Shown: positions 1,457 to 23,903, numbered from the stretch's first letter. The stretch is DNA of 38,844 bases from an uncultured bacterium (GCA_949291445.1 CASEVT010000094.1:1-38844); one strand, 5' to 3'. Notes: generated from the sequence alone by a model not told the origin. A program made the numbers and translations.

Positions 1457-1478
1457 AAATCCTCCAAATAAAATTCGA

Positions 1479-2536: not shown

Positions 2537-2544
2537 CATACCTC

Positions 2545-3876: not shown

Positions 3877-3904
3877 AGTCCTCCCTTCTATCCAAGCATC
3901 TTAG

Positions 3905-3934
3905 AAAAAACCGCAGATAAAAGATTACCTGCGG
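3905..3934 (-). terminator. Intrinsic terminator after the major tail protein gene
   Basis: The minus strand reads a 10-bp stem (C-C-G-C-A-G outer part, one G-U pair) with a four-base loop over 3911-3934, followed by six U (3910-3905). It separates the tail-tube gene from the tail-tip gene and probably lowers transcription of the tip genes relative to the abundant tube protein. Confidence 0.8.
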
Positions 3935-3962
3935 ATTAACTAACAATTGCCAACATAAAAAC

Positions 3963-4559: not shown

Positions 4560-4606
4560 TTTTATCTCCTTTTCATTAAGTAATAAACAATATAGCCAAA
4601 GGCTAT

Positions 4607-4981: not shown

Positions 4982-4999
4982 AATATAATCCTTTCAAGC

Positions 5000-5305: not shown

Positions 5306-5325
5306 CTAAATCCGGCCTTTCTTAA

Positions 5326-5763: not shown

Positions 5764-5777
5764 AAATTCTCCTTAAT

Positions 5778-5807
5778 AAGAAAAATCGGCGGTGAAAAAC
5801 CGCCGAT
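5778..5807 (-). terminator. Intrinsic terminator after the major capsid gene
   Basis: A perfect 9-bp GC-rich stem (5785-5793 with 5799-5807, 5-nt loop) is followed on the minus strand by UUUUUCUU. It lies 29 bases after the capsid stop codon. Partial termination here would give more capsid than connector message. Confidence 0.85.
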
Positions 5808-5836
5808 AGTAATAGAAAGTTCATCAAAAACAGATA

Positions 5837-6802
5837 TTAAGCACCCAACTCATCGGCACTCGGAACAAGTACGGCAAACGGATAACGATTTGCAGACGAA
5901 CCTTTTCTGCTGACCGGATTTGCAACTTGAATACCGATACGCATAACACAACGTAAAGCGCACATATCTTGTTGAGCAAGGTTGTAAGCAATAGTACCAT
6001 CAGAATTTTGTATAATAGCCTGATCCAACAGTTTGTAAGTGATATCCTGACGAATAGAATAAACAGCCTTACTAAAGTCACCTGCAACTAAAAGAGCCTG
6101 AGAAGTATCAAAAACACCACCGATTTGATCATACAATAACGGACGTCCAACGAGACTTACCGGAACCTCAGAAGTAAGACCGGGAGTGTAAAGAAGTTGA
6201 TTATTTTTATCACGAAGATTTCTAAACTTAGCTTCCAAAGTGCTATCAGCATAGAATCCGGTAACGCGATAGCCAGCAGCCTCAACTTTTGCCATAACCC
6301 CATTTTCACCAATAATATCGCCTGCAATATCAACATCAGTACCGACTTCAACAGTATTACCTTTAGAGATAGCTTCAGTAACGATAGCATTAGGATAAGA
6401 AGCAGGTTTGTTAACCCCGAAGAATATTGCTTCATCAATAGCAAGCCCGAATGCCTCAACAATTTGAGGTTTTAACTCATCCCAAATAGGATAAGCAGCA
6501 TCATCTAAAACAGCTTCGGGAATAGGAATAATAACAGCAATTTCCTCTGCGGTAAGAGTTAATTTATCCCATTCAGCATTAGTAGTTTGCTTGGTAGCAG
6601 TATCACCGTTCAGAAAATATGCACTTGGTAATGCGGAAGCAACAGGCAAAGTTCTTTGCTTAGCACTCATATTAGGTAATTGTTTAAAAAGTTGCAAAGC
6701 AGCGGAAGCACCCGGAACATTTTTAATAATTTCGGAAGAAGTCTCAACAGGAATCATAACTTCCACATTGCTACGAGTAATCATTTTAGCATCAGTTGTC
6801 AT
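5837..6802 (-). CDS. Phage major capsid protein (HK97 fold)
   Basis: 321 residues. The sequence has the familiar HK97-type layout: an N-terminal arm with I-T-R-S-N-V-E-V-M-I-P and V-E-T-S-S-E-I-I, then M-S-A-K-Q-R-T-L-P-V, then A-E-E-I-A-V-I-I-P-I-P-E-A-V-L-D-D, then a spine-like helix (W-D-E-L-K-P-Q-I-V-E-A-F) and F-F-G-V-N-K-P. I recognise this set from siphovirus capsids of Clostridia-type phages. There is no N-terminal delta-like domain and no prohead protease gene in the module; a separate scaffold gene precedes it. A terminator follows directly. It forms the icosahedral shell. Confidence 0.9.
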   Translation of the reverse strand: MTTDAKMITRSNVEVMIPVETSSEIIKNVPGASAALQLFKQLPNMSAKQRTLPVASALPSAYFLNGDTATKQTTNAEWDKLTLTAEEIAVIIPIPEAVLDDAAYPIWDELKPQIVEAFGLAIDEAIFFGVNKPASYPNAIVTEAISKGNTVEVGTDVDIAGDIIGENGVMAKVEAAGYRVTGFYADSTLEAKFRNLRDKNNQLLYTPGLTSEVPVSLVGRPLLYDQIGGVFDTSQALLVAGDFSKAVYSIRQDITYKLLDQAIIQNSDGTIAYNLAQQDMCALRCVMRIGIQVANPVSRKGSSANRYPFAVLVPSADELGA

Positions 6803-6833
6803 TTTATTTTCCTTTCTGTATTAAATAAACCGA

Positions 6834-7382
6834 TTATCTGCCCAACGCCGAGCGAATTATTTTGTCAATTTTTTGAGACGAAGTCAGATTAAGATTTTTG
6901 GACGGTTTAAACATACCGCCAATATTTTGTTTTTTGGATGAAAAGAGAAAAGGATTTTCTTTTTTGTAATCAGTAATGAAAGAATCGACATCCTCACAAT
7001 CAGAAGGAATATCTTTCACAACGAGTTCACTTTTAATACATCCGGCCTTATCCAGTTTTCTGATAAGAGTCAACGAGTTATGAGACGCTTTCAAAGCGTT
7101 CAATTCATTTTGAATCTCATCGGCCTTAGCTTGAATTTGGAGTCTAATAGCGGACTCTTCTCTTGAAGAAGTACGATAACGAGCGGCTTCTTTGCGCAAT
7201 CTTTCAATTTCTTTTTTCATCGATTTAGAAGAAGAAGCTCTAATAAGCAAGTCCATTTTTTGACTTGCAGAGAGTTCTTCTTTTTCGTTCAGATTGTTGT
7301 TTGCACCCGGCAAACTTTGAGTATCATCGTCCATATTAGGCGAATTCAGCTCATCAAAATTTTTGTCCTCTGTACCTGACAT
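6834..7382 (-). CDS. Phage scaffolding protein
   Basis: 182 residues, strongly charged. It starts with an acidic disordered stretch (to about residue 35) followed by a long coiled coil (about 50-105, e.g. M-K-K-E-I-E-R-L-R-K-E-A-A-R-Y-R and I-Q-A-K-A-D-E-I-Q-N-E-L). The C-terminus is basic (S-Q-K-I-D-K-I-I-R-S-A-L-G-R), as expected of a scaffold tail that binds capsid. It sits directly before the capsid gene with a good AAAGGAG SD. It should template prohead assembly and then leave the shell. Confidence 0.75.
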   Translation of the reverse strand: MSGTEDKNFDELNSPNMDDDTQSLPGANNNLNEKEELSASQKMDLLIRASSSKSMKKEIERLRKEAARYRTSSREESAIRLQIQAKADEIQNELNALKASHNSLTLIRKLDKAGCIKSELVVKDIPSDCEDVDSFITDYKKENPFLFSSKKQNIGGMFKPSKNLNLTSSQKIDKIIRSALGR

Positions 7383-7421
7383 AGGAACTCCTTTCTTTTT
7401 GTGACAGTGATTTAGAAAAAG

Positions 7422-8507
7422 CTAAATAGAAGAAGGTCTGGCACGATAGTAACTTTTCACCTTTACACCATCGCTACGTGTATAATCTTTCACAAAGACC
7501 ATACCGCCTTTTTCAACAGCTTTATCTGCTTGTTCTTTGGTTGGAACACCTATTGTTTTTCTTTGATAGTTAATTGCATCCAATTTTTCGTCATATTCAT
7601 CATCAGACATATTGTCAATATCTTCTACTGTATAGATTTTGTTCTCACCCGTAACTTCATTCTTATAACCGGACAGATCAATACTTTCATCAAAAACTTT
7701 ATCATCTTCACCGGCTTCAAACTTAGGATTGTCAGAGTTTAAATTTTCAATCTTGTTGTCATCAGTAGTTTTAGCACGATTCAAAAGGGATTCTTGCTGT
7801 TCAAACAATTTTTCTTTCTGAGCCACAAGCATTTCTTTTAGCCCAAGTGAGGGACTTTCAGGGCGTTTCATAGAATCAAGTTTTTCTTTTTCTTGAACAA
7901 GATAAGACTCAATACCGTCTAAGAAAGACACTGAACTCTTATTCTTATTAGATAATTCATTTTTAGTATCGGCATAACTTTTGAGATCACTGATTACATT
8001 TTTAGAAACCGAACCCTGATAAACTCTTTTATCATCAACACTTGAAACCATTTCACCACTTTTAAGAGCATTGTACACTTTTATGGCAATCATATCTTCT
8101 ATATGCTCATCGCTAAAATCATTTTCAAACCCTTTAAGCTCATCAGCAACCTTGAGACCGATTTCTCTGCCGACACGATTATTCCACAAGTCCATTTCTT
8201 TAGCTTGTGCAGTATCGGGATTATTATTGGAATACTCATACATATTGCCAATTATGTTAGCAGTAAAATTCCCGTATTTTCTGGCCAATGAAGCCATTAA
8301 AAAAGCATGTCGAAACGCATCAGTTTCATTGTCAGCCGAAATCATAGGATGTGAATCCGGATCCAAACCAAACAAAGATCTGTAATGTTCAGCTTTGTCA
8401 ATGTAATAATCTGCAACAGGCTTATATTTTGAATTTGAATTATTTTTTAAACTATCATTTAAATTAGCAAATAAATCATAAGCGCTATATTTTTTTTTGT
8501 CAGCCAT
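7422..8507 (-). CDS. DUF6973-like phage protein, possibly virion-associated or an ejected effector
   Basis: 361 residues from ATG 8507, which has a GGGAGAG Shine-Dalgarno; the open frame continues upstream into a terminator, so the longer start is unlikely. Residues about 59-120 carry E-T-D-A-F-R-H-A-F-L-M-A-S-L-A, N-M-Y-E-Y-S and M-D-L-W-N-N-R-V-G-R-E-I-G. This Asp-Arg-His / Glu / Asp-x-x-Asn-Asn-x-x-Gly-Arg set is the DUF6973 pattern seen in toxins and phage proteins. A Glu/Lys-rich middle follows, then a basic end (D-Y-T-R-S-D-G-V-K-V-K-S-Y-Y-R). It occupies the slot of the minor head (MuF-like) protein between portal and scaffold. A structural or ejected enzymatic role is inferred, not shown. 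Confidence 0.6.
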   Translation of the reverse strand: MADKKKYSAYDLFANLNDSLKNNSNSKYKPVADYYIDKAEHYRSLFGLDPDSHPMISADNETDAFRHAFLMASLARKYGNFTANIIGNMYEYSNNNPDTAQAKEMDLWNNRVGREIGLKVADELKGFENDFSDEHIEDMIAIKVYNALKSGEMVSSVDDKRVYQGSVSKNVISDLKSYADTKNELSNKNKSSVSFLDGIESYLVQEKEKLDSMKRPESPSLGLKEMLVAQKEKLFEQQESLLNRAKTTDDNKIENLNSDNPKFEAGEDDKVFDESIDLSGYKNEVTGENKIYTVEDIDNMSDDEYDEKLDAINYQRKTIGVPTKEQADKAVEKGGMVFVKDYTRSDGVKVKSYYRARPSSI

Positions 8508-8522
8508 AATACTCTCTCCCAT

Positions 8523-8550
8523 AAAAAAGAAAGAGTCCGAAGACTCTTTC
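8523..8550 (-). terminator. Intrinsic terminator/attenuator with UUCG tetraloop
   Basis: A perfect 9-bp stem (8529-8537 with 8542-8550) closes a UUCG tetraloop on the minus strand and is followed by six U (8528-8523). It lies between the membrane-protein pair and the DUF6973 gene, whose SD starts a few bases later. UUCG loops are unusually stable, so a large share of transcripts may end here. Confidence 0.85.
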
Positions 8551-8587
8551 ATTAAAATTAACACCAATTAAGAATTTTTATGAATAA

Positions 8588-9151
8588 TTACCATGTTCCA
8601 ATGAGAATTTCAGTCTTATCAGCTGAATTATAATCGATAGATAGAGTTATTTTATCCAGACGAAGAAAAGATGTTCTTTGGTCCGTAATTTTTTTTCTAA
8701 CCTCCGGCGTAATATTCAATCGCACCTTCTCATAAGGAAAATAAACAGGAATAATTGCATGTTTATCTTGACAGACCAATAAAAGCATACCGGTCGTATC
8801 AAGTAAACCTGCCGAAAAATAATCCAATTCATTATTTGGATATATATAAATTTTAGCTAAACGTAAGGCAGACTGAGGCAACATTCTGCGCAGATACGGA
8901 ATAAGAACAATACCCTCCATATTATCAAATTTATAGACAGCATTAAGCCTATCCACATTTTCAATTTCAGGAAGAACAGCTGTCCTTACCATAACTGCAT
9001 CCTTTTTCATATAATCAGTCAGATAAAATCCTTCATATACACGATAAAAAGTCATACAATCATCAAAATAGAACCTGAAAATGATAAACGCAGCGAATAT
9101 CAAAATCAGCATAAATACAATTTTCAGAAATTTCCAAAAATACAAAAACAT
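8588..9151 (-). CDS. Membrane-anchored protein of unknown function (paralogue pair, member 2)
   Basis: 187 residues with one strong N-terminal transmembrane helix (about 8-28) and a roughly 155-residue domain that follows. Near residue 130 it has L-L-L-V-C-Q-D-K-H and I-I-P-V-Y-F-P-Y-E-K, matching the spacing of L-L-L-I-N-N-D-D-S and V-I-P-V-F-F-D-K-K in its neighbour at 9160-9708; the two are probably diverged paralogues. They stand nine bases apart inside the phage structural operon between portal and DUF6973 genes, an unusual site for membrane proteins. Superinfection exclusion, a virion membrane role or a lysogenic conversion function are all possible; I cannot choose. Confidence 0.65.
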   Translation of the reverse strand: MFLYFWKFLKIVFMLILIFAAFIIFRFYFDDCMTFYRVYEGFYLTDYMKKDAVMVRTAVLPEIENVDRLNAVYKFDNMEGIVLIPYLRRMLPQSALRLAKIYIYPNNELDYFSAGLLDTTGMLLLVCQDKHAIIPVYFPYEKVRLNITPEVRKKITDQRTSFLRLDKITLSIDYNSADKTEILIGTW

Positions 9152-9159
9152 AAAACTAC

Positions 9160-9708
9160 CTACTCGACCTGTCTTATAAAGACATTTACATTTTTAGAGT
9201 TAACCTGCTGTCTAAAGCTCATTTCAAAGTTTTTAGTACTGAAACAATTTATGTCAGGTTCTATACGATTTTTCAAAAGTGCCACAGAAAATTGAAAATC
9301 AGCATTTTTCTTATCAAAAAAGACAGGAATAACAGAATCATCATTATTAATCAACAAAAGATAATCCTTATCCCTGTTAAATTTTGAAAAATACTTATCC
9401 ATTCTATCGACCTTGAAGGAATTGATATGAAACAAATCGCTCAAATCAGACGGCATTGTATCATCGGAATTGTAACAAAATCCTCTCATATTAATAAAAG
9501 AAATTTGCAACTTTGAATCCGAGAGATTTTTTATATCGTTATTCAAGAAAGTTGCAACCATATCGGAGAGATTTTTGTCATACACAGACTCAAATACACC
9601 CTCCAAAGAGAGATACTCATGAACAAATATATAAGCGCGTTTTGTCAAAAACAACGATAATATAGCCAGAACAAGAACCAAGAAAATAATATTTAAGAAT
9701 TTCAACAA
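9160..9708 (-). CDS. Membrane-anchored protein of unknown function (paralogue pair, member 1)
   Basis: 182 residues with one N-terminal transmembrane helix (about 5-23), lacking a cleavage-like site, then a soluble domain. The start is TTG 9708, with GGAGGT at the correct spacing and no better ATG. It shares with the next gene the order: TM helix, short helix, strand-rich core, L-L-L-(I/V)-x-x-D, then (V/I)-I-P-V-(F/Y)-F. The family is not recognised. Gap to the portal gene upstream is 111 bases, with nothing recognisable in it. Confidence 0.65.
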   Translation of the reverse strand: MLKFLNIIFLVLVLAILSLFLTKRAYIFVHEYLSLEGVFESVYDKNLSDMVATFLNNDIKNLSDSKLQISFINMRGFCYNSDDTMPSDLSDLFHINSFKVDRMDKYFSKFNRDKDYLLLINNDDSVIPVFFDKKNADFQFSVALLKNRIEPDINCFSTKNFEMSFRQQVNSKNVNVFIRQVE

Positions 9709-9819
9709 TTCAAACCTCCATAAAAGTATTTTGACAGAAATGAATCACAATACACTTATGTATTTACCGTTTAATAAATTTTAAGAAGGCACAAAAGCTT
9801 TCACAAGCGAAATTTGGGA

Positions 9820-11238
9820 CTATATTTGTGAATCATCAGATAAAACATTTTCCTCAATATCAGAATCAATATTAAGTTGCTGATCCATCAATTTATTTTC
9901 AAGGGCAATCCGTTCCAGCTCAATTCTGGCATCAGCTTCGCAGACATCATCAAGAGTCATAATAGTAGTCAAACGGCTTTGAGTACCGGCAGCGACCCTG
10001 CTATTTTCGACGGAGACCTTTTCGCTATAGTCAGAAGGGATAGGTTCGCCCCAGGCAATTTGAACATTTTCTGCAGGAGTATAATTAAAAGCCATAGCAC
10101 ATTTAACAACGTTTTGAATAGTAGAATTAAATGAGACCTGTTTAATGTCGTCGACCTTTGCAAGAGCGGCAATAAATATCTTTCTCAAGCTTTCACCGGA
10201 CAAAGTACCGGACAGATTAATCCCATAAGCTTGAGGCGGAGTTTTAGTCAAAATATAGAAAAATTGCAAGAGCATATTAATATGTCGTTCTATAGCGTCA
10301 GCCTGCAAATCAGCGGTAATATACTCAGGCTTAATACCGTCAGTTCCGACCTTCAAAAAGTCGGTATTAGGCAAGCGTCTTTCATTAGTAACGGGATCGT
10401 GTTCAAGATTTTGTTCACTACCCGCCAATTTAGGATTAGCATGCCTGTTTATTATTTTAGAATTTTGACTAACAGTCAACATAATTTCTTCAACAATAGA
10501 CTTACAGCGCAAGTAGTCACTTTCACCGAAATACTTATCACTTTCAGTACTATTTTTCGTAGGAAAGATCAAAAAATCATCCCATATTTCGGAGAAGTCC
10601 TCAATTTCTTGTATACCGAGAGCAGCAAGCTCATCAGAATCCAATTTTTTACCCAAAGCACCCTCCAATGAAGTCCAGACCTCATTTTCGACATAGCCCT
10701 TATGATGTTTTTCAACTTTTTTATATTCTTTTTTAACACCGTTCTCGACATTATAAAGTGAATAAATCAGAATATGCCCGTCAATATCATTCAAATTGCC
10801 ATTGCGAAAAACAGGAATCCAGCAATCCGGAGAGATGGAAAAAATCTTAACTTCATCCTCAACAACAGCGACCTTAAAAAGACCGTTGCCATAGCGAGAA
10901 TTATCAATATACACTTCTTTAAGCACAGAAATAAAATTGTTTTTAGTCGAAATTTCATTCCAATTTTGCTGAACGGCATCATCAACGTTAACATCAATTC
11001 CCTGATTAGTAATAAACCCCTTAAAAAAGTCAGTCAAAGCCCAGAAGAGGTTGATATTAATAAGCGACTGAGAAGTAGTATTATCGAGCGGATAGCGTTT
11101 TCGAATTTTAGCGATTGTAGAGCTAAACGCCTTGGAGAAATCACCTTCATACAAATTTCTATAATACTCATAATCAGAAAATCTTTCGACAGTATCATTG
11201 TCATATTTAATATTTTGGACATCAAAAGTAGTAAACAT
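9820..11238 (-). CDS. Phage portal protein
   Basis: 472 residues, predicted mixed helix and strand. It has the position (directly after TerL), length and layout of siphovirus portal proteins: an early helix with Y-E-Y-Y-R-N-L-Y-E-G-D-F, a central strand region (S-P-D-C-W-I-P-V-F-R-N-G with H-I-L-I-Y-S-L), a later long helical part including P-P-Q-A-Y-G-I-N-L-S-G-T-L-S-G-E-S-L, and an acidic C-terminus. The S-G-x-S-L motif before a helix is usual in this family. It forms the dodecameric ring through which DNA is packaged and ejected. Confidence 0.85.
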   Translation of the reverse strand: MFTTFDVQNIKYDNDTVERFSDYEYYRNLYEGDFSKAFSSTIAKIRKRYPLDNTTSQSLININLFWALTDFFKGFITNQGIDVNVDDAVQQNWNEISTKNNFISVLKEVYIDNSRYGNGLFKVAVVEDEVKIFSISPDCWIPVFRNGNLNDIDGHILIYSLYNVENGVKKEYKKVEKHHKGYVENEVWTSLEGALGKKLDSDELAALGIQEIEDFSEIWDDFLIFPTKNSTESDKYFGESDYLRCKSIVEEIMLTVSQNSKIINRHANPKLAGSEQNLEHDPVTNERRLPNTDFLKVGTDGIKPEYITADLQADAIERHINMLLQFFYILTKTPPQAYGINLSGTLSGESLRKIFIAALAKVDDIKQVSFNSTIQNVVKCAMAFNYTPAENVQIAWGEPIPSDYSEKVSVENSRVAAGTQSRLTTIMTLDDVCEADARIELERIALENKLMDQQLNIDSDIEENVLSDDSQI

Positions 11239-11307
11239 AAATCCCCCTTATCAGATAAATACGCAAACAGAATAAAAATAAATCAGATTAACAAAAGTAA
11301 AATAAAC

Positions 11308-12579
11308 TCAAATGAATCTTTTTTCATAAAAAGTCAAAGCATATCTTGTTTCATCCATAGCATCGTCATTTTCTTTGACCGGCATATCAGGGTCAAGCAT
11401 AGAGTCATCTTCAGAAGGATACCGATAGGTTTCAAATTCCCGAAGAGTATTCTTGCAGCGATCACGATTGACGATCAATCTGTCATAATTGATAATGCTT
11501 CGCAAAACGCCGATACTATCGATAACACGAGGTTTTTCCTCATAAACAATAATCCCACCTAAGGACTCACGGAGCTTATGATTTTGCTCTGGACGGGCAT
11601 TGTCAGCATTAATAAATCGAAAATACCGACCATATTCTTTTTGACGGGCAAGAACCCATTGAATTACATCATCCTCATTCATTTTAGCGCCATAGAGCTC
11701 ATCAATTTTGTAATATACCTTATCAAAAGTAACACCATACAAACCGCAACATAAAGGGTGATTCCATCCCCAATCCAACCCCAGAAAGTACTCCCGAAAT
11801 TCCATATTAGCAATTTTTTTGAGAATATCATCATGAGCGCAAGTATGCTTAGAGGAGCTAAAAGTATCATAAACAAGCCCGTCCGCAACAACCCATAAAC
11901 CCTTAATTTTTCTTGCTTCAAAGGGACCGGAGTACAATTTTTTTTGATTGTCAATAAATTTTTTTGACAGATTGGCATTATCCTCCATAGTGAAATGCCA
12001 ATAATCAAAAACGCTTCGGACTTTAGCATCACCCTCGAGAAAAGGTTTAATTTTTTGTTTATACAACCAGTGATTGCAGCTTTCTGGGTTACTATCGGCG
12101 ATAGCTCTGGCATTAGCAGGGGTAAGCCTGGATAAAGCCATATTAAAAAACTGGTAATGATGTTTCGGAAGCTCATTAGCATACCAAAAGTCCCAAGTAC
12201 CACCCTGAATAGTGGCATCCGAATCAGCCTTACCACCGCCTACGACCAGACAATTATAAGTTTTACCCCAAAGCTTAATATCCAATTCACCACTGGAAGA
12301 ATTATATCTAACATCAGCACCGTGGTAGTTTTTTAAAAAAGGCAGCAATTCAATCAAAACATTATTTCTGACGGTTTGTTTAGTATAACCGGAAAAAACT
12401 TTCAAATATTGATTGCCGACGAACTGAAGCATCCTTGGGATTTTATAAATAACAGAAAGAGTCTTAGCCGAGCGAGTAGCCCCATCCAAAAGCGTAAAAA
12501 ATTTCATATTCTCCGGAGCAAGGCTCAAAAACTTCTTATGTTTTTTACTATACTTAGACTTAGTCCAATCAATCGGCAT
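11308..12579 (-). CDS. terL: Phage terminase large subunit
   Basis: 423 residues. The N-terminal ATPase has a Walker-A-type loop G-A-T-R-S-A-K-T at residues 33-40 and a probable Walker-B/catalytic Glu region around F-W-Y-A-N-E-L-P-K-H. The C-terminal nuclease half begins with F-L-G-L-D-W-G-W-N-H-P, the first metal-binding Asp of the RNase H-like fold, and continues to N-A-D-N-A-R-P-E. The gene overlaps the end of terS by 11 bases, so the subunits are coupled. The SD is AAAGGA. It is the motor and nuclease that packages DNA. Confidence 0.9.
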   Translation of the reverse strand: MPIDWTKSKYSKKHKKFLSLAPENMKFFTLLDGATRSAKTLSVIYKIPRMLQFVGNQYLKVFSGYTKQTVRNNVLIELLPFLKNYHGADVRYNSSSGELDIKLWGKTYNCLVVGGGKADSDATIQGGTWDFWYANELPKHHYQFFNMALSRLTPANARAIADSNPESCNHWLYKQKIKPFLEGDAKVRSVFDYWHFTMEDNANLSKKFIDNQKKLYSGPFEARKIKGLWVVADGLVYDTFSSSKHTCAHDDILKKIANMEFREYFLGLDWGWNHPLCCGLYGVTFDKVYYKIDELYGAKMNEDDVIQWVLARQKEYGRYFRFINADNARPEQNHKLRESLGGIIVYEEKPRVIDSIGVLRSIINYDRLIVNRDRCKNTLREFETYRYPSEDDSMLDPDMPVKENDDAMDETRYALTFYEKRFI

Positions 12580-12958
12580 CCAGATCCTTTCCCATTTCTT
12601 CCAAACTTCTTAAATAAGCTTCCTGAGTATTCAAAGAATCCTTAGACGCATCATCTTTTTTAGAACTGGTCATAACCTTTCTTTCTTCATCAGAAGCAAG
12701 CAGCTTAAACAAAGCAATCTGACAAGTAGGAGAAGCATTAGGTTTCAACCATTGGATCATTAACTGTTGCTTAGTAGCAAACCTATTTTCACTGATAGCA
12801 TCCAGAAGGATTTTCGACTCATCAAGCTTGTAGTCATAAAATTTTTCAAGCGAAAACGGCAAAAAAGCCGCAATTCCTTCAACAGTAAGAACATTTTGTT
12901 CTTTAATAATATCCAAACACTGCTCTTCGAGCATCTTGTAATCTTTTTTTCTGCGCAT
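12569..12958 (-). CDS. terS: Probable phage terminase small subunit
   Basis: 129 residues from ATG 12958 (M-R-R-K-K-D-Y-K-M-L). An open frame continues upstream to 13015 but enters the structured element at 12988-13072, so the shorter start is preferred; its ribosome site is weak. The N-terminal half is helical with a helix-turn-helix-like pattern (Q-N-V-L-T-V-E-G-I-A-A-F-L-P-F) and the C-terminus is acidic and helical. It overlaps the TerL gene, the normal partner arrangement. It should recognise the packaging site. Identification is by order and helical content. Confidence 0.65.
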   Translation of the reverse strand: MRRKKDYKMLEEQCLDIIKEQNVLTVEGIAAFLPFSLEKFYDYKLDESKILLDAISENRFATKQQLMIQWLKPNASPTCQIALFKLLASDEERKVMTSSKKDDASKDSLNTQEAYLRSLEEMGKDLDAD

Positions 12959-12987
12959 AATCCATATATTTACAACTAATCTACAAA

Positions 12988-13072
12988 CAAAAAAAAGCAT
13001 ATAGCGTGCTTTCAAAAAGAAAGCTGAGGCATTTTGAAGTAGTTGAGAGTGAGAAGAGATAACGCTATATGC
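12988..13072 (-). ncRNA. Structured element / intrinsic terminator upstream of terS
   Basis: An 11-bp perfect outer stem (12997-13007 with 13062-13072) encloses 54 bases that contain a second perfect 6-bp hairpin (13008-13013 with 13019-13024) stacked directly on one side. On the minus strand the outer stem ends in a run of eight U (12996-12989). It lies between the gene at 13087-13548 and terS. It may be a terminator with an elaborate stem, a small phage RNA or part of the packaging-site region. The pairing is seen directly; the function is inferred. Confidence 0.6.
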
Positions 13073-15224: not shown

Positions 15225-16748
15225 TCACACTTGCAAAATATCTAACATAATACTGGAAACGGACTGATAAATTTGAACCACACTCATAGGACAAATACCG
15301 AAATAGAGAATAACAGCGGTAAAAGTAGTCAGAACGCTAATTTCGTGCGGACTCAAATCCTTAACCCTTCTAAACTGTTCCAACAAAACTGAACAAAATA
15401 CCTTATAAAAGAAATACATAACATATCCCGCAGAAAGAATAATAGCAGCAAGCCCGATAATAGCAAGAATTTTAACCAACAATTCTTCTTCGAGATTAGA
15501 AATCATAGCACCGGTTAAAATCATAGCCTTAGGAGCAAACATAATGAGAAAAGGAACGCCGATAGCACCAAAAGCAATAATCAAAGCAAAATACATGCAT
15601 CTGGGCATAACAGTCCCCAAACCACCCAAAGAAGTTATATAAGTAGTTTTTGTCCGAAACTGAATAGCCGCAACAATAGCAAAAAGTGCAGAAAAAACAA
15701 TCGCAGAAGAAACCGCCATCAAAACAGCGCCATTGAACCCAATCTGGTTGAGAGACCCCAACCCGAGCATAATAAAGCCTTGAACAGAAATATTTGCATA
15801 AGAAAGCGTTTTTTTAATATCAGGTTGAACCATAGCCAAAACGCCGCAATAAACGATGTTAATAATCCCCCAACACATTAAAATCGGGGCAAACAACTTA
15901 AAAATCTCCGGAAATACAAGCATATTAAAGCGAATAATCCCGTATATTCCTGTATTCAAAATCACACCAGAGAGCAAAATATTAACCGGAGCCGCAGATT
16001 TAGACTGGATATCGGCATACCAATTATGAAAGAATGCAAACGGAACCCTAAACAGAAATCCGATCATAAAATTTGCAAATACAAAAATTTGAAACCAAAG
16101 CGGATAAATTTTTTCATCCATACTCAACGATTCAATATTTGCAGTCATAACATTACTTACCGCGAAATTATAATAATAAAGAATAAGCATCCCTAAAAAT
16201 AAAAACACATTAGCAACAAACGAAATGAGAATAAAACGCATAGCGGAACGTCTGGCATCCTTACTACCCCACTGAGAGACCAAAAAATAGACAGGAATAA
16301 GCGACAACTCCCAAAAAACAAAGAACAAAAACATATCCTTAGCACAAAAAATCCCCAAAACAGCGGACTCCAAAAGAAAAACCATAGAATAATAGAGTTT
16401 ATGCTTAGAACGTATATGAATTTTGCTCAAAACGAGAGTTAAAAGTACAATAAAAGTTGTAAGCACAACCATCAGAACAGCGACACCGTCAATGGCGAAC
16501 TTAGCACTGATACCGAGACTTTTAAGCCAGGTCATATTTAAAAAAGTCAATTCTTTTTCATAAGACATACCGTACAGACTTGAATCAAAAAACACCAGAA
16601 ACAGTAATGAATAGATAAAATGGAGACCGGCAAAAAACTTTGCAAACCGTCTTACCATAACCTGATGATTAGGAAATTTAGGAAAAAGTATAATACCGGC
16701 GACAATAATCGGAGCAAATATCAAAACCAATAAAGACAAATAATTCAT
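15225..16748 (-). CDS. nuoM: Complex I membrane subunit M homologue lacking key Lys/Glu residues
   Basis: 507 residues, about 14 transmembrane helices. ATG 16748 is chosen because GGAG is six bases upstream; with it the residue numbers nearly equal E. coli NuoM. The TM5 Glu is kept (E147 in F-W-E-L-S-L-I-P-V-Y-F-L). The K234 position is Arg (F-L-F-R-V-P), K265 is Asn (V-I-L-N-T-G-I-Y-G), E407 is Lys (M-F-A-P-K-A-M-I-L), H322 is Val and H348 is Ser. The usual W-L-P-D-A motif is W-Y-A-D-I. These alignments were made by eye without gaps in each block. The frame is intact. It is a membrane protein that probably keeps the fold but not the usual proton path. Confidence 0.85.
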   Translation of the reverse strand: MNYLSLLVLIFAPIIVAGIILFPKFPNHQVMVRRFAKFFAGLHFIYSLLFLVFFDSSLYGMSYEKELTFLNMTWLKSLGISAKFAIDGVAVLMVVLTTFIVLLTLVLSKIHIRSKHKLYYSMVFLLESAVLGIFCAKDMFLFFVFWELSLIPVYFLVSQWGSKDARRSAMRFILISFVANVFLFLGMLILYYYNFAVSNVMTANIESLSMDEKIYPLWFQIFVFANFMIGFLFRVPFAFFHNWYADIQSKSAAPVNILLSGVILNTGIYGIIRFNMLVFPEIFKLFAPILMCWGIINIVYCGVLAMVQPDIKKTLSYANISVQGFIMLGLGSLNQIGFNGAVLMAVSSAIVFSALFAIVAAIQFRTKTTYITSLGGLGTVMPRCMYFALIIAFGAIGVPFLIMFAPKAMILTGAMISNLEEELLVKILAIIGLAAIILSAGYVMYFFYKVFCSVLLEQFRRVKDLSPHEISVLTTFTAVILYFGICPMSVVQIYQSVSSIMLDILQV

Positions 16749-16757
16749 CACAATCTC

Positions 16758-17915
16758 CTAAATTTTCATAATAGTCAAGTAGAATACAAAAATAAAAAGG
16801 AATACGACCGACAGACCGATAAAAGAATAGATCAAATAAGACTGAAAAGTACCGGTCTGAAACCGGCAACAAAGATAAGAAGCGCAACGGACGGCCAATT
16901 CAATAAAATGAGCAATAGTCTCAATAACATATTTTTCAATCCAATCGGCAACTTTACAAACAAAGAAAAAGAATTTATTAGCAAATCCGATAAAAACGAA
17001 AATAAAAGCGATTATAAAAATTGCCCACACCCAGTTTTGTCCGAGGTTAACGAAAAACACATCAAATCTAAAGAACAAATACAAACCCAAAAGAACAATC
17101 AAACTATTTTGAAACAAAATGATTTTAGATAAACTACTGCCAAGTTTAGACTCAAAAGTCAAATATATAAAAGCCTGCATAAATTTCATAAGAATTACAA
17201 AGATCAAAACAGAGCAGAAACCGACAAATAAAGGTCCGCTCATGAGAGAATTAATACATTCAGCAATTCCGGACATATTGGAAAAAGCAAGTGAAGAACT
17301 TCCGACAAGCTGGTTATAAGTCACCGAGAAGTACAAAATAGTAATAACACAGAAAAACAAAGTTAAATCCCCAATCCGATTAAAGATATACGACTTAATC
17401 GCGGCTTTTGATTCAGAGCGATTTGAAAAATCGAAATTTATTAAAAGATAAGAAGCCACCCCGACAATCTCACAGAGCATATAAGCCTGCAATATATTAG
17501 GTGCAAGAAAAGCCCCGAACAGCCCGACAGAAAAGAGATTAAGATAGACAATCAACCTGCCGGAATCCTGAATTTGACGCAGCTTAATCCAAGCAAAGAG
17601 CTGTGCTGCAAATGAAAAAATTGCAGCGAAGAACAAAAAGCTGACAGAAATTTTATCAACAAGAGTACCTATGTAAAAATTAACGCTTTCAGAAGCAAGC
17701 CACAAAAAAGAATTTTCGATAAAGTTATTACTGAAAACAGCAGAGAAAAAAGCCCCGCCGGAAATCGCCACACACAGGAAAGAGAAGAGCAAACTCAAAC
17801 CCATAATAAATTTAGAATCCAAGCGATTAATGATTAAGCTGTTTGCAAAAACCAAAAAACAAACAAAAAGAGGCAGAAAAATAACCAAATTAATATTAAA
17901 AATACAAAGATCCAT
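16758..17915 (-). CDS. nuoL: Complex I subunit L homologue, internally shortened (385 aa)
   Basis: 385 residues against about 610 usual. The N-terminal 310 residues align with NuoL: S-F-A-A-Q-L-F-A-W, the TM5 Glu (E149 in C-E-I-V-G-V-A-S-Y-L-L), R-I-G-D, and K244 at the K229 position. From there 36 residues align without gaps to the TM7-8 segment and end G-L-Y-L-F-F-R, but W-L-P-D-A and the conserved His (Q269 here) are lost. The sequence then jumps to the NuoL C-terminal part (residues about 312-385, ending R-F-Q-T-G-T-F-Q-S-Y-L plus a last helix). Helices about TM9-14, with K342 and K399, are missing. It is one continuous frame with a good GAGGGG SD, so this is not a sequencing frameshift. 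Confidence 0.85.
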   Translation of the reverse strand: MDLCIFNINLVIFLPLFVCFLVFANSLIINRLDSKFIMGLSLLFSFLCVAISGGAFFSAVFSNNFIENSFLWLASESVNFYIGTLVDKISVSFLFFAAIFSFAAQLFAWIKLRQIQDSGRLIVYLNLFSVGLFGAFLAPNILQAYMLCEIVGVASYLLINFDFSNRSESKAAIKSYIFNRIGDLTLFFCVITILYFSVTYNQLVGSSSLAFSNMSGIAECINSLMSGPLFVGFCSVLIFVILMKFMQAFIYLTFESKLGSSLSKIILFQNSLIVLLGLYLFFRFDVFFVNLGQNWVWAIFIIAFIFVFIGFANKFFFFVCKVADWIEKYVIETIAHFIELAVRCASYLCCRFQTGTFQSYLIYSFIGLSVVFLFIFVFYLTIMKI

Positions 17916-17918
17916 TAC

Positions 17919-18245
17919 TTACCCCTCACTGTCTTTAATTTTTTCTATATCCAAATATTCATTAGAGCGATAAATTTTGTAAAAAACGGCAAGCCCGATT
18001 GAAACCTGAACAAACGCCAACAGAATTACGAACACACACACGAGGTTAGAATTAGCAAGTGTATCATCACAATAAGTACCAAAAGCAGCGAAATTTAAAA
18101 TAATAGATAAAGAAACAACAAGCATAGACATAACAATCCTTAAAAGATTTCTGGAAATCATTATACCCGCAATGCCCAAAATAAACATTAGCAAAGCCAA
18201 TATCAAATAGTGTAACAATCCAATATCAAATATAAGATCAAGCAT
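17919..18245 (-). CDS. nuoK: Complex I subunit K homologue without the two essential glutamates
   Basis: 108 residues, three transmembrane helices. ATG 18245 has an excellent AGGAGTAA SD and overlaps the nuoJ end by eight bases; a longer frame to 18353 lies inside nuoJ. Homology to NuoK is plain: H-Y-L-I-L-A-L-L-M-F-I-L-G-I-A-G, R-N-L-L, L-N-F-A-A-F, S-I-G-L-A and the C-terminal L-D-I-E-K-I-K. The E36 position is L42 and the E72 position is Q80. In E. coli both glutamates matter for proton translocation. NuoK sits at the head of the antiporter chain, so the loss affects the first link of the path. Confidence 0.85.
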   Translation of the reverse strand: MLDLIFDIGLLHYLILALLMFILGIAGIMISRNLLRIVMSMLVVSLSIILNFAAFGTYCDDTLANSNLVCVFVILLAFVQVSIGLAVFYKIYRSNEYLDIEKIKDSEG

Positions 18246-18813
18246 CGAAATTACTCCTATCAACACCGCCGTTGAGCTCGCGAGATAAAGAATCATTTTG
18301 ACTCTCCTGACTATTTTCGGAATCGATCGGGAAAACCAAAGCCCTAACGACAATCAACGTTGTAACAGTAAGGATAATAACGAGATGAAGAGGAAAAATA
18401 TACTCACTAAAGTTAAATCCCTCAGCAGATTTCATATTCACAAAATTGAATATATTAATCAAAGAACGGCTAAACTCTTCTCTCACAAAAACAATAGTCA
18501 AAGCAAAAAACAAAAATAGCGAAAAGACGGAAAAAACAATTTTTGCTGGATGAACCAGTTTCAAAGGCAAATTCCACCTTGAAATCGAATTCATTAAAAC
18601 GCAAATAGCAGGACAAATCAGAATACCAAAGACAAAAAACATAGACAAAGCAATAAATTTAGCCTTCAAAACCCAGCATAGCAGCGCAGTGAACAAAACA
18701 CTAAAGATTAAAGCGATAGAAGCCAAAAACATTCTTGAAGCAAAAATAACAAAAGACAAAGCTCCAAGCAAAAGCCCTGCCAAACCGTAAAAGCTAACTG
18801 ACTCAGTAAACAC
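18238..18813 (-). CDS. nuoJ: Complex I subunit J homologue, first gene of the nuoJKLMN operon
   Basis: 191 residues with about five transmembrane helices, starting at GTG 18813 behind a G-rich SD (AGGGGGT). The S-R-M-F-L-A-S-I-A-L-I-F-S-V-L-F-T-A-L-L segment corresponds to the NuoJ N-P-V-x-S-A-L helix region; the usual V-Y-x-G-A-V-M-V-L-F-L-F segment of TM3 is strongly changed (F-V-F-G-I-L-I-C-P-A-I). The polar C-terminus overlaps nuoK. No nuoA-I gene lies upstream: the next gene is divergent. The peripheral arm must therefore be encoded elsewhere or be absent. Confidence 0.75.
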   Translation of the reverse strand: MFTESVSFYGLAGLLLGALSFVIFASRMFLASIALIFSVLFTALLCWVLKAKFIALSMFFVFGILICPAICVLMNSISRWNLPLKLVHPAKIVFSVFSLFLFFALTIVFVREEFSRSLINIFNFVNMKSAEGFNFSEYIFPLHLVIILTVTTLIVVRALVFPIDSENSQESQNDSLSRELNGGVDRSNFDA

Positions 18814-18866
18814 CCTACCCCCTGCAAAATTAACTTAAACCATGAAAGCATGTACACCGACATACA

Positions 18867-18895
18867 TTCATATCAAATTTTATAACACAATACAA
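18867..18895 (-). promoter_or_regulatory. Possible nuo operon promoter
   Basis: On the minus strand TTGTAT (18895-18890) and TATGAA (18872-18867) are 17 bases apart, and TGA precedes the -10 as in an extended -10. The hexamers match sigma-70 moderately. The 5' leader would be about 50 bases. It is adjacent to the divergent promoter of the TPR gene, so the two may be co-regulated. Confidence 0.35.
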
Positions 18896-18898
18896 AGG

Positions 18899-18907
18899 TG
18901 ATATAAT
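18899..18907 (+). promoter_or_regulatory. Extended -10 promoter of the TPR gene
   Basis: TGATATAAT gives a consensus TATAAT (18902-18907) with TG one base upstream. No good -35 is seen, as expected for an extended -10 promoter. The leader to the ATG at 18955 would be about 40 bases. Confidence 0.6.
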
Positions 18908-18954
18908 ATTATTTGTTGTGAATTATTAAGAAGAAATTTAAGAATAGCGTAAAA

Positions 18955-19653
18955 ATGAAAAAGTTTATAATACGCCTGCTAACACTAATCCTGCTCTACG
19001 CAAGTATGGCACAACTCCAGACATATGCGTCAATAATAAAAGACACACCGGATGATACTGCAGCGGCATACGCAGCAAAAGGGGATAAAATACTCAACTA
19101 CTATGAGAATTTGGAGGACAAAACCGGAAAAGAACGATTTTTAATAGCCGCCAAATATTTTTATTACCAAGCAAACAGACTGGACATCTCCAATGAAAAT
19201 GCATACGTGGGACGAGCGCGAGTAGCACTTGCACAAAACAAAGTACGAGAAGCGAAAAACAATCTTTTTCTCGCACTAAACTTTGACGAAAACAACCCGA
19301 AAGTAAATTTCTATCTTGCGGAAGCTTTTTTTCAAGACGGAGAATTTACAGAAGCGATAAAATATTACACAGAAGCATACATGCACGGATACAGAACGAA
19401 TTACAAAACCAATCTAAAACTAGGGATCTGCTACGAAAAATTAGATGACGAGCAAAGAGCAAAATACTACTACACCAATGCAATAAAAATCGACTCCACA
19501 AATCAAGAAGCCCAAAACAGACTTAAAAATTTAACAGTAAATAACGCAAAGACAAATGAACTTGATATTTTACCAGACACACAAAAACAAGAAGAAAAAG
19601 AAGAAGAAATAAAGCTCGAACAAGAAGAGAAAAACAGCTTACCCAAGGAATAA
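18955..19653 (+). CDS. Secreted/periplasmic TPR-repeat protein
   Basis: 232 residues. It has a signal peptide (M-K-K, hydrophobic to about 21, then Q-T-Y-A-S), followed by helical repeats with TPR signatures: A-Y-V-G-R-A-R-V-A-L-A-Q-N, P-K-V-N-F-Y-L-A-E-A-F-F-Q-D-G and N-L-K-L-G-I-C-Y-E-K-L-D-D, at 34-residue-like spacing. The last 30 residues are Glu/Lys-rich and probably disordered. TPR proteins bind partner proteins; no partner is indicated here. It is divergent from nuoJ, but a link with it is not supported beyond the shared promoter region. Confidence 0.85.
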   Translation: MKKFIIRLLTLILLYASMAQLQTYASIIKDTPDDTAAAYAAKGDKILNYYENLEDKTGKERFLIAAKYFYYQANRLDISNENAYVGRARVALAQNKVREAKNNLFLALNFDENNPKVNFYLAEAFFQDGEFTEAIKYYTEAYMHGYRTNYKTNLKLGICYEKLDDEQRAKYYYTNAIKIDSTNQEAQNRLKNLTVNNAKTNELDILPDTQKQEEKEEEIKLEQEEKNSLPKE

Positions 19654-19958: not shown

Positions 19959-22900
19959 ATGCTTATAACAGGAGATAAACCAAAAGTCCATTATACTGTT
20001 GTTACGGATCCTATATTGAAGAAGAATAAGAGCACACAGCCATCATTTAAAGGTCATACGTTAACAGAAGACGAACACGGACGTCTGAGTTATATATTTA
20101 ATTTGCCGAATGCACCGGCAAATACCAAGATACAATTTGCAATTTTACAGAGAAAGCCTGATGGGACCTTTGAACTACTTACCAATGACCCCAAGAAATT
20201 CGATACAAGAAACTTACCCAAAAGCGGCTTAAAGATTGATGCGAAGACATTGTTGAATGATCCTGACAAGATACTCGGATACAGATTTTTACTTGACGGG
20301 AAACACATATATCACGACTACACGAAAAAGAACATATACGACAACGACAAAAAAGACATAATGTTCAATATCGCAATGCCGATAAACAGACCCGGTCACA
20401 CCCTTGCGCGTCATATGGTGCATCTTTATCCCGACTCGGTAGTATTAGATTTATCGGAAGAGAAAAGGAATCATTTCAACCATCTGGGCGGAAGTATATC
20501 ATCAATAATAAGCAAACTTGATTACTACAAAGAATTGGGAATAAAGAGAATACTGGCCACACCGATATTCGGACAAGGTACAGTAGGCAGCCACGGATAC
20601 TGGACAGAAAATCCATATCAAATAACAGCGACATTAGGTGATATTGAAGACTTCAAAAAGCTGCAGAAAGAACTATTCAAAAGAGGAATGGGCTGGGTAG
20701 CAGACGGTGCATTTGTAAACGAAGGACTACAGGGTATTCATATAAAAGATATTTTAAACTTAGGAGAAGATTCTCCATTTATAAACTGGTTTGACACAAC
20801 CGACATAAAAAATAGCGGAGCAAAATTAGGAGTATTTTCAAAGCAGCCCCAGACAAACAAACACAGTCATATAAAATTAATAAATGCGCCCTATAGAATA
20901 GACTACGAAAAGACAGATGACGGATACAAAGAAAAAGCCATTTTTCAAGTTCCGGTAAATCCCAATAAATCCACCTACATACAAGTTTTTGACGATAGAT
21001 TGGTAACAGAAGAACAAGTAAAGCAGCAAAAAGTATTCAAAGAGTACGGAAGAAAGAATGCACCTGACAAACATGAAATAAACAATTACAAAGACGCAGT
21101 ACAGCCCTATGCATTCAGAGTAAGCCCGAAAGATATAAGAAGGAACTTTGAAAAATATAAAGAGTTACAAAAACACAACCCTCAAATAGAATTTAAAGAT
21201 ACCTTAAGACGCTGGTCGAATTTTGAACTGACAGAAACAAATGAAGATGCCGGTATTTCATTGTGGGTAGGAAACAGTGACATAGCGAAGAAAAGATTTA
21301 TGATAGCACCCGAAAAATTCAAAGACCTTTCAGCACAAGAAAGAAAGTTGCTGGAATCAGCGCAATATCAGGTACAAGATGATACGGTACAAGTTGGAAA
21401 ATTCTGGACATCAGAAGTATCAAGAATTTTATTAACATACACATCAGAGGAAATAGGAAAGAAGTTAGAAGAAGGCAACACGTACGAAGAAGCGATAAAA
21501 CAATTAATAAAAGAAGAGAAATTGCCAAAAACAACAGAATTAATTTTTGAGAAGACAAACGGAGAATCCCCCTTAGATAATATACTTACAATAAGAAGAA
21601 ACGGAGAAAGGAATTATCAACTCACAAAGGTAGAAAGACCTGAAAGCATAACAGACGGACTAATGTCATATCCGTTAGAGGGGATAGAGTTTTCAGCAGA
21701 TTTAACATCCATACTCGCATACCCGTACATAAAAAACTATGCAGTAAGCGATGAGACCATAGGTAAATCAAGATATGAAATGTACAAGGACAGAAACACC
21801 TTCTACAAAGAGCTTCCATCAAGGTATGTGGAAACATACAAAAAGATGGATGATTTTATTGCACACGATATGACAGACAAAGCGATATCGATATTGAAGA
21901 GTGCAGGAGAAAGAGCAGAATTCGAAATAGTCAATGAAAACGGAGAATTAACGGAAGACGGCAAAGAATTTTATGCATTAATAGCACCGGATCTGGCAAA
22001 GTTCTTATACATATCATCAATCGCCCCCAATGTACATCCTAAGTTTTATAAGGACAACGACAACAACCTGCAATTCGGATACGATACAAAAGAATTAGAA
22101 GAGATCACACCGGAATTGTTGGGATTGCAATTTGGAATATCACCGGAAGACACCTCACAAAAATTTATAGAAATAATAAAAAATGGAATTAATCAAATAG
22201 ACGAAAAAGACAGAGCCAGATTTATCAAATATATAGCAGAAAAAGCCAGAAACGTTGATGCAGACACGATCAGTGTTGCGCGATTAATCTTGGAAAAGAC
22301 GGAATCAGGCTTAGATTGGAGAATAGACGCATCGAAAGATGTTGGAGATTGGGACGGAGCAGAAGCAGGGATTTTTGATGAACAAGATTGTTACGAGAGA
22401 TTTTCGAGATTCTGGGTTCACTTCAATAAAAATGTAAGAAAGTTTAATCCCAAATCATATACCATAGGCGAAATGGTATTAGATATGAATGAAAAATTTG
22501 TAGACGGCAACTTGAAAGGCAAATTCAAACAAGATTTTATAAGCCGAACAAATTTCTCGACAACAACGGACTACAATTATATGTATGGAAGACCGCTTTC
22601 AGCATACGGAACAAGCTCAGAAAGTCAACATCATGAAGACAATATGGGATACATAACACCTGCAATATTAAATGACAGCCTATTCCAAGGATTTTTGGAC
22701 GATGTAAATTTTGCGCACACATTTTCAGGTAACCATGACAAACCAAGAATCCTGCACACACTAGCGGTAAAGATGTATGGAGATGAAGAAGGTCAAGGTT
22801 TTCTAATAAACAAATCTCAAGCAGTAAAAAATGTAATGCTAAAAGCGTTTGATAATTCAAAGACGTTCAATGAGCAATTTAAACCATACAAAACAAGGAT

Positions 22901-23903
22901 CTACCAGATGATAGGAGACTTATCAGAAGGAAGATACTCATACAACAATACAGAAAAATTCTTCCCGGGAGAAGAATTTGGTTCAAGACCTTATGATCAA
23001 ACGATAGACGACGTCTTTCAACAAGCAACGTTGAAAAGTCTGAAGCTTGAAAAATTCCTGAGTGACAATCCTGACATATATAAAAAAGTAAAAGCTGAAA
23101 TATTGGAATATATGTTAAGACCCGCTCTAACGAAATACGCATCGGCACTTTTCTATATGGTGGGAATGCCCGGCAATCCGACGTTATATGCCGGAGACGA
23201 GCTTGGAGAGACAGGCTGGGAGAGCATAGCGAAGAATGCAACACAAAATAACAGAAACAGACTGCATTATGAACGATTAGAAGATAAAGATTATGGATTT
23301 ATAAAGAAATACGCAGATGACATAAAGAGCATATTAAATATAAGGAGTCAAAAAGGCGCATCAGCACTGGTAAACGGTTCAGCAATACCATTGGCATCAC
23401 AAAGACTGAACAATGTGGAGATGACAGAATGGCCCGAAGGTAAACCGGTAAAAGTATATAAATCTCCCGGAGAAGCCGGAGTAGTATACAGATATAACGA
23501 CAAAACCGACGCAATATGCGTATTTCATAATGCCGGCTACGGAGCAGACAGAATCAATACGGGAATGGATTGTTCAATACCTGCAATCTACCTTGACGGA
23601 TACAACGGAAATGCAGGATTACCAAACGGACTTGAACCCGAGACACTATACTATGACGCACAAAACCCCAACAACAAATACAAAGTGGTAAAAGAAGGCA
23701 ATACATACAAAATAGTAAACACAGCAGGCGGAGATATTCCACTAGGAAACAGGGGAATAATTTTGTTAAGGGAATACAGCTTCACGGGAGAGCACTACCT
23801 GCAAAACAAAAATGGTGCATTTATTCCAAATTTCAGAGGACGAAATACTAACCCGCATATAAAACTTGCCAACACGAAATACAATATAGCAAGCCACAAT
23901 TAG
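19959..23903 (+). CDS. Large GH13-type (alpha-amylase family) protein, 1314 aa
   Basis: An alpha-glucan-active TIM-barrel enzyme of unusual length (GH13 enzymes are often 450-750 residues). The four GH13 regions are present: G-W-V-A-D-G-A-F-V-N near 245-254, R788-I-D790-A-S-K (nucleophile D790), T-I-G-E838-M (acid/base) and S-G-N-H926-D927. An early barrel segment H-L-G-G-S-I-S-S-I-I with G-S-H-G-Y-W-T-E-N-P-Y lies near 170-230, after a probable beta-sandwich domain (34-150). About 540 residues separate regions I and II, far more than usual, so the barrel holds a large insert. No signal peptide is present; residues 28-32 are P-S-F-K-G. SD is AGGGGTAAGG. The substrate (glycogen, maltodextrin or transglycosylation) cannot be told. 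Confidence 0.85.
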   Translation: MLITGDKPKVHYTVVTDPILKKNKSTQPSFKGHTLTEDEHGRLSYIFNLPNAPANTKIQFAILQRKPDGTFELLTNDPKKFDTRNLPKSGLKIDAKTLLNDPDKILGYRFLLDGKHIYHDYTKKNIYDNDKKDIMFNIAMPINRPGHTLARHMVHLYPDSVVLDLSEEKRNHFNHLGGSISSIISKLDYYKELGIKRILATPIFGQGTVGSHGYWTENPYQITATLGDIEDFKKLQKELFKRGMGWVADGAFVNEGLQGIHIKDILNLGEDSPFINWFDTTDIKNSGAKLGVFSKQPQTNKHSHIKLINAPYRIDYEKTDDGYKEKAIFQVPVNPNKSTYIQVFDDRLVTEEQVKQQKVFKEYGRKNAPDKHEINNYKDAVQPYAFRVSPKDIRRNFEKYKELQKHNPQIEFKDTLRRWSNFELTETNEDAGISLWVGNSDIAKKRFMIAPEKFKDLSAQERKLLESAQYQVQDDTVQVGKFWTSEVSRILLTYTSEEIGKKLEEGNTYEEAIKQLIKEEKLPKTTELIFEKTNGESPLDNILTIRRNGERNYQLTKVERPESITDGLMSYPLEGIEFSADLTSILAYPYIKNYAVSDETIGKSRYEMYKDRNTFYKELPSRYVETYKKMDDFIAHDMTDKAISILKSAGERAEFEIVNENGELTEDGKEFYALIAPDLAKFLYISSIAPNVHPKFYKDNDNNLQFGYDTKELEEITPELLGLQFGISPEDTSQKFIEIIKNGINQIDEKDRARFIKYIAEKARNVDADTISVARLILEKTESGLDWRIDASKDVGDWDGAEAGIFDEQDCYERFSRFWVHFNKNVRKFNPKSYTIGEMVLDMNEKFVDGNLKGKFKQDFISRTNFSTTTDYNYMYGRPLSAYGTSSESQHHEDNMGYITPAILNDSLFQGFLDDVNFAHTFSGNHDKPRILHTLAVKMYGDEEGQGFLINKSQAVKNVMLKAFDNSKTFNEQFKPYKTRIYQMIGDLSEGRYSYNNTEKFFPGEEFGSRPYDQTIDDVFQQATLKSLKLEKFLSDNPDIYKKVKAEILEYMLRPALTKYASALFYMVGMPGNPTLYAGDELGETGWESIAKNATQNNRNRLHYERLEDKDYGFIKKYADDIKSILNIRSQKGASALVNGSAIPLASQRLNNVEMTEWPEGKPVKVYKSPGEAGVVYRYNDKTDAICVFHNAGYGADRINTGMDCSIPAIYLDGYNGNAGLPNGLEPETLYYDAQNPNNKYKVVKEGNTYKIVNTAGGDIPLGNRGIILLREYSFTGEHYLQNKNGAFIPNFRGRNTNPHIKLANTKYNIASHN

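Follow-up and report, generated by a model that had tools for sequence, protein, structure and literature searches.

We analysed a stretch of 38,844 nucleotides, here called the window, from a Gastranaerophilales ('Melainabacteria') MAG of 1.78 Mb that is 95% complete in 134 contigs. As listed in Table 1, the window carries only nuoJ, K, L, M and N, densely packed and all on the minus strand; the locus has lost nuoA, B, C, D, H and I. Relatives found by scanning contigs were labelled Candidatus Gastranaerophilales ('Melainabacteria') or uncultured bacteria.

Family models recognised the five genes unequally. NuoL and NuoN are recognisable, each scoring under its own family cut-off. Recognition of NuoJ by Pfam is weak and its sequence is very divergent; the assignment rests on its position and on orthologues in relatives.

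A prophage adjoins nuoN and occupies positions 1-13000 of the window on the minus strand. On the other side, a very large protein (19959-23903) has a short N-terminal "FKG" motif in common with another very large protein (L032 1042-7539). This motif is possibly a family signature of these bacteria.

Table 1. Features of the window, with positions counted from its first nucleotide.
Feature	Position	Strand	Evidence
Prophage protein, glycoside hydrolase and tail-assembly matches	2545-3876	-	
Prophage major tail protein	3963-4559	-	
Prophage major head protein	5837-6802	-	
Prophage portal	9820-11238	-	
Prophage terminase large subunit	11308-12579	-	
nuoN, 480 aa	13773..15215	-	TIGR01770 E 1e-81, 275 bits, under cut-off 332.6
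nuoM, 508 aa	15225..16751	-	TIGR01972 339 bits, above cut-off 263.8
nuoL with internal deletion, 385 aa	16758..17915	-	Alignment and structure model
NuoL deletion junction (approximate), residues 312/313 of the window protein	16977..16982	-	Alignment
nuoK, 108 aa, ATG at 18245, overlapping the nuoJ stop	17919..18245	-	PF00420 E 3.7e-17
nuoJ-like, 191 aa, first gene of the operon	18238..18813	-	PF00499 17.6 bits, E 0.0032, cut-off 33.2 not reached
Junction with the divergent starts of operon and TPR gene; relatives have nuoA, B, C, D, H and I here	18814..18954	.	
Divergent TPR-repeat gene, syntenic marker, also adjoining many complete operons	18955..19653	+	Pfam TPR families

Absence of the redox arm

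Complete relatives have the TPR gene followed by nuoA to nuoN. We found 25 distinct orphan operons of the window type (the window and 24 relatives), and in 25/25 the TPR gene is followed directly by nuoJ, each time on a single contig. The orphan alignments contain 27 rows, two of them repeats (L067 of L020 and L069 of L009). Because the TPR gene adjoins nuoJ in every orphan, the six genes were deleted at the locus and not lost in assembly. What remains in the window derives from an 11-subunit complex I (NDH-1-type) operon, from which nuoB, C, D and I were lost together with nuoA and nuoH. Sequence, gene order and synteny all point to J, K, L, M and N as complex I membrane-arm subunits by descent. 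An artefact, with the missing genes on unassembled contigs and the residues discussed below misplaced by gaps, could be suspected from the incompleteness and fragmentation of the window's MAG. However, the junction of TPR gene and nuoJ is contiguous on 25 distinct contigs, genomes up to 99% complete are without the genes, and the residues stand where expected when complete relatives are aligned. We give an artefact almost no credence.

Using the proteins of a complete relative as queries, we found no complex-I NuoB, NuoD or NuoH in the window's genome. Complex-I NuoB and NuoD were not found in the other headless genomes (those with a complex-I-type NuoM and without a complex-I NuoD) either, and a locus-level survey showed NuoC and NuoI to be absent at the headless loci. 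Complex-I NuoH gave no match in g1, g14 and g24, is absent from the window's clade and is degenerate in g17, g27 and L028. The parts that mark a complex I/NDH-1 enzyme, namely NuoB, C, D and I, NuoH and the proton-wire residues in K, L, M and N, thus appear to be missing here, as far as the sequences tell.

The window's genome (G000) has two PF00346 matches, both of one Ehr/Hyf-like complex that is split over contigs C36, C44 and C102 (L031, L002, L032). This complex possesses its own antiporter-type and HyfC-like subunits. Two of the five PF00361 proteins of the genome belong to it, and the other three are NuoL, M and N. The C-terminus of its large subunit seems to be without the NiFe cysteine pair, a loss that has been reported for gut Melainabacteria (PMC3787301).

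The earlier note had proposed that the membrane module might anchor a ferredoxin- or hydrogenase-linked arm. Redox coupling of this kind could draw on the Ehr-like complex, which the window's genome and nine other headless genomes encode, or on another ferredoxin-linked arm. However, 14/24 headless genomes yielded neither a NuoB-like nor a NuoD-like protein, whether of the complex I, Ech or Ehr type, so a hydrogenase-linked arm is unlikely as a general answer. In addition, the window's clade has no NuoH, the docking and quinone-site subunit, and the Ehr-like complex would bring antiporter-type and HyfC-like subunits of its own. Anchoring to an Ehr or hydrogenase complex was rejected as a general explanation on the NuoB/NuoD and NuoH absences, and redox coupling of the orphan arm in any form is improbable. 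Although the Ehr/Hyf-like (group 4 hydrogenase-related) complexes occur in the same genome and have the antiporter fold in common with the arm, they lie at a separate locus with their own subunits and are undetected in most headless genomes. Hydrogenase-like large and small subunits were found neither at the locus nor in the same 14/24 headless genomes, and the orphan proteins do not appear to form the membrane arm of a group 4 hydrogenase or Ehr complex.

We sampled 192 genomes from the order. Complex-I-type NuoM was present in 68, accompanied by complex-I NuoD in 44 and without it in 24. All 24 headless genomes fall in the window's family, where 25 genomes have both; the headless share is 24/49 of the sampled species of the family that carry complex-I NuoM. 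In other orders of the class, nearly all genomes with NuoM also carry NuoD. Two genomes from those orders (G194 and G205) have NuoM without NuoD; their assemblies are fragmented and these may be gaps.

Not all headless loci are of the window type. G087, G112, L028, G149 and G151 have A-H-J-K-L-M-N, exactly the seven membrane subunits, with B, C, D and I absent at the locus; nuoH and nuoA of these operons were checked by Pfam. In G091, G156, G157 and G167 the K-L-M-N cluster has diverged strongly, and nuoJ was recognised in two of the four. By eye, NuoH of the A-H-J-K-L-M-N operons (L034 1206-2282, L035 2639-3754) has lost the acidic loop motif, which reads HEAESEL in the complete L027.

We built a tree from K, M and N (1098 columns), on which the headless state requires four changes. 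L028 pairs with the complete L027 (support 100), the sister of the window's clade is G087/G112 (support 96), and g27 and g19 stand apart. A single headless clade was rejected by the AU test when L028 was included (p 2e-33) and not rejected without L028 (p 0.13). A single origin of all headless operons is thus ruled out with L028 included. These two results make two or more losses of the redox arm firm; the count of four belongs to the best tree only.

Erosion of the proton path

Residues were numbered by the E. coli MG1655 subunits, with relatives aligned alongside. In the window, NuoK has E36 replaced by Leu and E72 by Gln. NuoM has K234R (R235), K265N (N266), H322V, H348S and E407K (K408), and keeps E144. 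NuoN has E133A, K158G and K247P, and keeps K217 and K395. The NuoK replacements, those at NuoM 234, 265 and 407, the absence of His at NuoM 322 and 348, and in NuoN the absence of the TM5 Glu with Gly at 158 and Pro at 247 had been read by eye in the earlier note, and all of them hold in these alignments. Shifting of gaps did not rescue the lost Lys and Glu residues; misalignment is ruled out by the complete relatives, which align with residues and spacing intact.

Across all 25 distinct orphan operons, NuoM K234R, NuoM E407K, NuoK E72Q and NuoN K158G are constant and both NuoK glutamates are gone. The "middle" lysines of TM8, NuoM K265 and NuoN K247, are never Lys, and NuoN 247 is Val or Pro. 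By comparison, complete-operon relatives keep NuoM K234, K265 and E407 in 22/23 each, NuoN K158 in 23/23 and NuoK E36 in 22/22. With duplicates removed, NuoN 247 is Lys in 22/23 complete operons versus 0/34 headless ones, and NuoM 407 is Glu in 22/23 versus 0/35; both residues are gone in every headless lineage. Losses of NuoM H322 and NuoK E72 are weak evidence because both sites vary in complete relatives too, where they are kept in 10/23 and 15/22 respectively.

The buried ion-pair residues are mostly kept in the orphan operons. The TM5 Glu of NuoM, E144, is present in all of them and its partner at 234 changes only from Lys to Arg. In NuoN, every orphan keeps K395, a single one lacks K217, and just three (the window, L008 and L013) have lost E133. 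Every orphan also retains the quartet E144/R175/D178/K229 of NuoL. Residue losses differ between headless lineages, and several ion pairs are lost in g27, g19 and L028. L048 (G153, genus g28) has a complete ABCDHIJKLMN set and nevertheless shows NuoM E144M, K234R, K265N and E407A and NuoN K247Q. Loss of the wire does not strictly need loss of the head, because this gene-complete genome is already without these residues.

The earlier account had covered neither the absence of nuoABCDHI nor an internal deletion in NuoL. NuoL of the window has 385 aa compared with 613 in E. coli, and all orphans carry the deleted form of about 388 aa. The first 312 or so residues of the window protein align with NuoL/NdhF, and the roughly 70 at its C-terminus correspond to the final part of the lateral helix plus the last TM helix. 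The missing stretch of about 240 aa is therefore internal, and the C-terminal end is retained. K305, H334, H338, K342, K399 and D400 were removed with the deleted part and are gone in the orphans. In an AlphaFold model of fair quality (pLDDT 80, pTM 0.76), the last retained helix runs directly into the lateral helix (295-353), which is followed by a helix at 358-384. The model best matches NdhF and NuoL, with about 300 of 385 residues aligned. The NuoM model was poor (pLDDT 65) and served solely to confirm the fold. In a separate headless lineage NuoL has about 485 aa (L028 7527-8984, L030 1304-2749). Because NuoL was shortened there separately, its erosion seems to have arisen more than once.

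Purifying selection on the remaining genes

The J-K-L-M-N genes are under purifying selection in many species. With IQ-TREE codon models, omega in the orphan clade was 0.049 for J, 0.044 for K, 0.012 for L, 0.019 for M and 0.016 for N, compared with 0.034-0.043 in complete operons and 0.07-0.14 in g19; these values are approximate because synonymous sites are near saturation in most pairs, and the least saturated pairs agree with them. The least saturated pair, L038/L041 of g19, had dS of 0.26-0.49 and omega of 0.07-0.15. For the pair of the window and L008, omega was 0.046 for M and 0.033 for N.

No broken headless operon was seen among those examined. The impression that the genes are maintained, formed at first from intact frames, is borne out with omega at about 0.01-0.14, and a check of dN/dS and stop codons, which could have exposed decay, went against it. 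Ordinary decay is ruled out by omega and the open frames.

A neutral relic in slow decay, functionless and yet unbroken, would be consistent with the loss of different residues in different headless lineages, with the divergence of NuoJ and with the separate shortening of NuoL in L028/L030. However, omega in the orphan clade is about as low as in complete operons or lower, and the headless lineages form long branches without gene loss. Moreover, replacements have been fixed in the orphans at formerly conserved sites and are often frozen (9 in NuoM, 9 in NuoL and 5 in NuoN), and NuoM has 26 polar or special residues that are invariant in orphans and rare in complete operons. Because of these frozen replacements and new polar invariants, the orphan genes are not unconstrained relics. 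We hold slow neutral decay to be very doubtful.

Possible role of the headless arm

By the usual understanding, complex I is a pump, and its membrane arm has no purpose unless the redox arm drives it. The explanation that we favour, with somewhat more confidence than doubt, is that the locus encodes a headless complex I arm, sealed to protons and no longer a pump, which is maintained for a role outside redox chemistry, probably as a structural element or as the holder of a partner. The redox arm would have been lost first and the wires cut later. Nqo13 K235, K204, E123 and E377 are presumably the counterparts of E. coli NuoM K265, K234, E144 and E407. Nqo13 and Nqo12, when isolated as modules, let protons across liposome membranes; Nqo13 stops conducting when its middle lysine (K235M) or its terminal glutamate (E377Q) is replaced, and conducts faster when the Glu-Lys ion pair is broken (E123Q) (PMC11496545). 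Because the isolated modules conduct, a headless arm with intact wires would be a leak: without the redox arm, an antiporter-type arm would let protons pass passively. Such a leak would cost these bacteria, as H+-PPase was found in all 11 genomes tested and ATP synthase subunit a in ten of them. The exception is the window's own MAG, where the failure to detect subunit a probably reflects a gap; the ten related genomes have it.

Under the sealing explanation, the wires would have been cut by replacement of the middle lysines of NuoM and NuoN, deletion of half of the NuoL channel, loss of the NuoK carboxylates and change of the terminal glutamate of NuoM, with the buried Glu-Lys/Arg ion pairs kept. 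By analogy with the engineered Thermus mutants, the orphan pattern of cut wires and kept ion pairs fits sealing against protons. The change at NuoM 407 is weak evidence by itself, because E. coli complex I with NuoM E407K continues to pump, at 1.5 H+/e- (PMC9271201). The end product would be an assembled, proton-sealed membrane complex, a "headless complex I". It may serve as a scaffold or hold a partner. Beside the orphan loci no new conserved partner gene was seen other than the ancestral TPR gene, and the downstream neighbours vary; no partner or positive function of the arm was found in the loci and genomes searched. A purely structural role is the default reading. The absence of the redox arm, the loss of the central lysines, the deletion of half of NuoL and purifying selection together lend strong support to the core of the earlier proposal, a non-pumping or re-purposed module.

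Alternatively, the arm may have been converted to a transporter or channel for another ion or solute, using the kept ion pairs and new polar residues, as in Mrp and DAB. The homology of the subunits to Mrp subunits, the 26 invariant NuoM residues and the strong selection would all suit such a conversion. The Mrp cation/proton antiporter is likewise a redox-free membrane complex of NuoL/M/N/K-like subunits. However, the orphan subunits score best as Nuo families, NuoM and NuoN have lost their central lysines and NuoL its second half. An Mrp antiporter would be marked by a best match to MrpA or MrpD with MrpE/F/G partners; with Nuo families as the best match, and with the two proteins of the Ehr-like complex as the genome's only other PF00361 members, the orphan set does not appear to be an Mrp antiporter. 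The DAB and NDH-1MS CO2-concentrating modules likewise have a NuoL-type subunit with a non-canonical partner. DabA (PF10070) was found in 0/16 genomes tested, so DAB/CO2 transport is ruled out, and no new transporter partner was seen at the locus. We think conversion to a transporter unlikely.

The closest known system is the 11-subunit complex I (NuoABCDHIJKLMN, without NuoEFG) described for gut Melainabacteria (PMC3787301), together with the cyanobacterial NDH-1 type. Complete relatives have their operon at the corresponding locus, flanked by the TPR gene, with the genes in the same order and with J-N subunits orthologous to those of the window. Unlike the 11-subunit complex, the window's clade is without A, B, C, D, H and I, its NuoL is internally deleted and its wire residues are lost. 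The engineered Nqo12dTH and Nqo13 are likewise antiporter-type subunits freed from the redox arm, and the K235M block resembles the natural loss of K265 (PMC11496545). Compared with these modules, the headless arm is natural, multi-subunit and evolutionarily maintained, and is known from sequence alone. Partial complex I without NuoEFG has been reported in other Melainabacteria (PMC6349859), a phylogeny of Melainabacteria complex I left out MAGs whose annotation gave fewer than seven genes (PMC8235220), and a survey tallies "incomplete" complexes (PMC12361115). In the open-access literature searched, a search whose coverage did not extend to most subscription papers, we found no earlier account of a headless arm that is maintained.

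By descent, the five proteins are complex I membrane-arm subunits; by function they are not complex I. There is an even chance, in our judgement, that a redox-free membrane machine evolved repeatedly from the complex I arm in these gut bacteria, which are related to cyanobacteria, its wire sealed, with JKLMN having a new selected function and conserved residues of its own. Evolution appears to have produced the "headless" construct that biophysicists engineered (PMC11496545) and to have kept it under selection. The orphan operons can be read as natural mutagenesis: residues kept without pumping are the ion pairs and the terminal Lys of NuoN, and residues that apparently serve pumping only are the middle lysines, the NuoK glutamates, NuoM E407 and the deleted part of NuoL. 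Metabolic models of this family should be drawn with caution, as MAGs annotated with nuoL, M and N may have no complex I activity. Because the redox half has been discarded, the proton path is cut and strong selection remains, the once-respiratory machine probably now serves another purpose.
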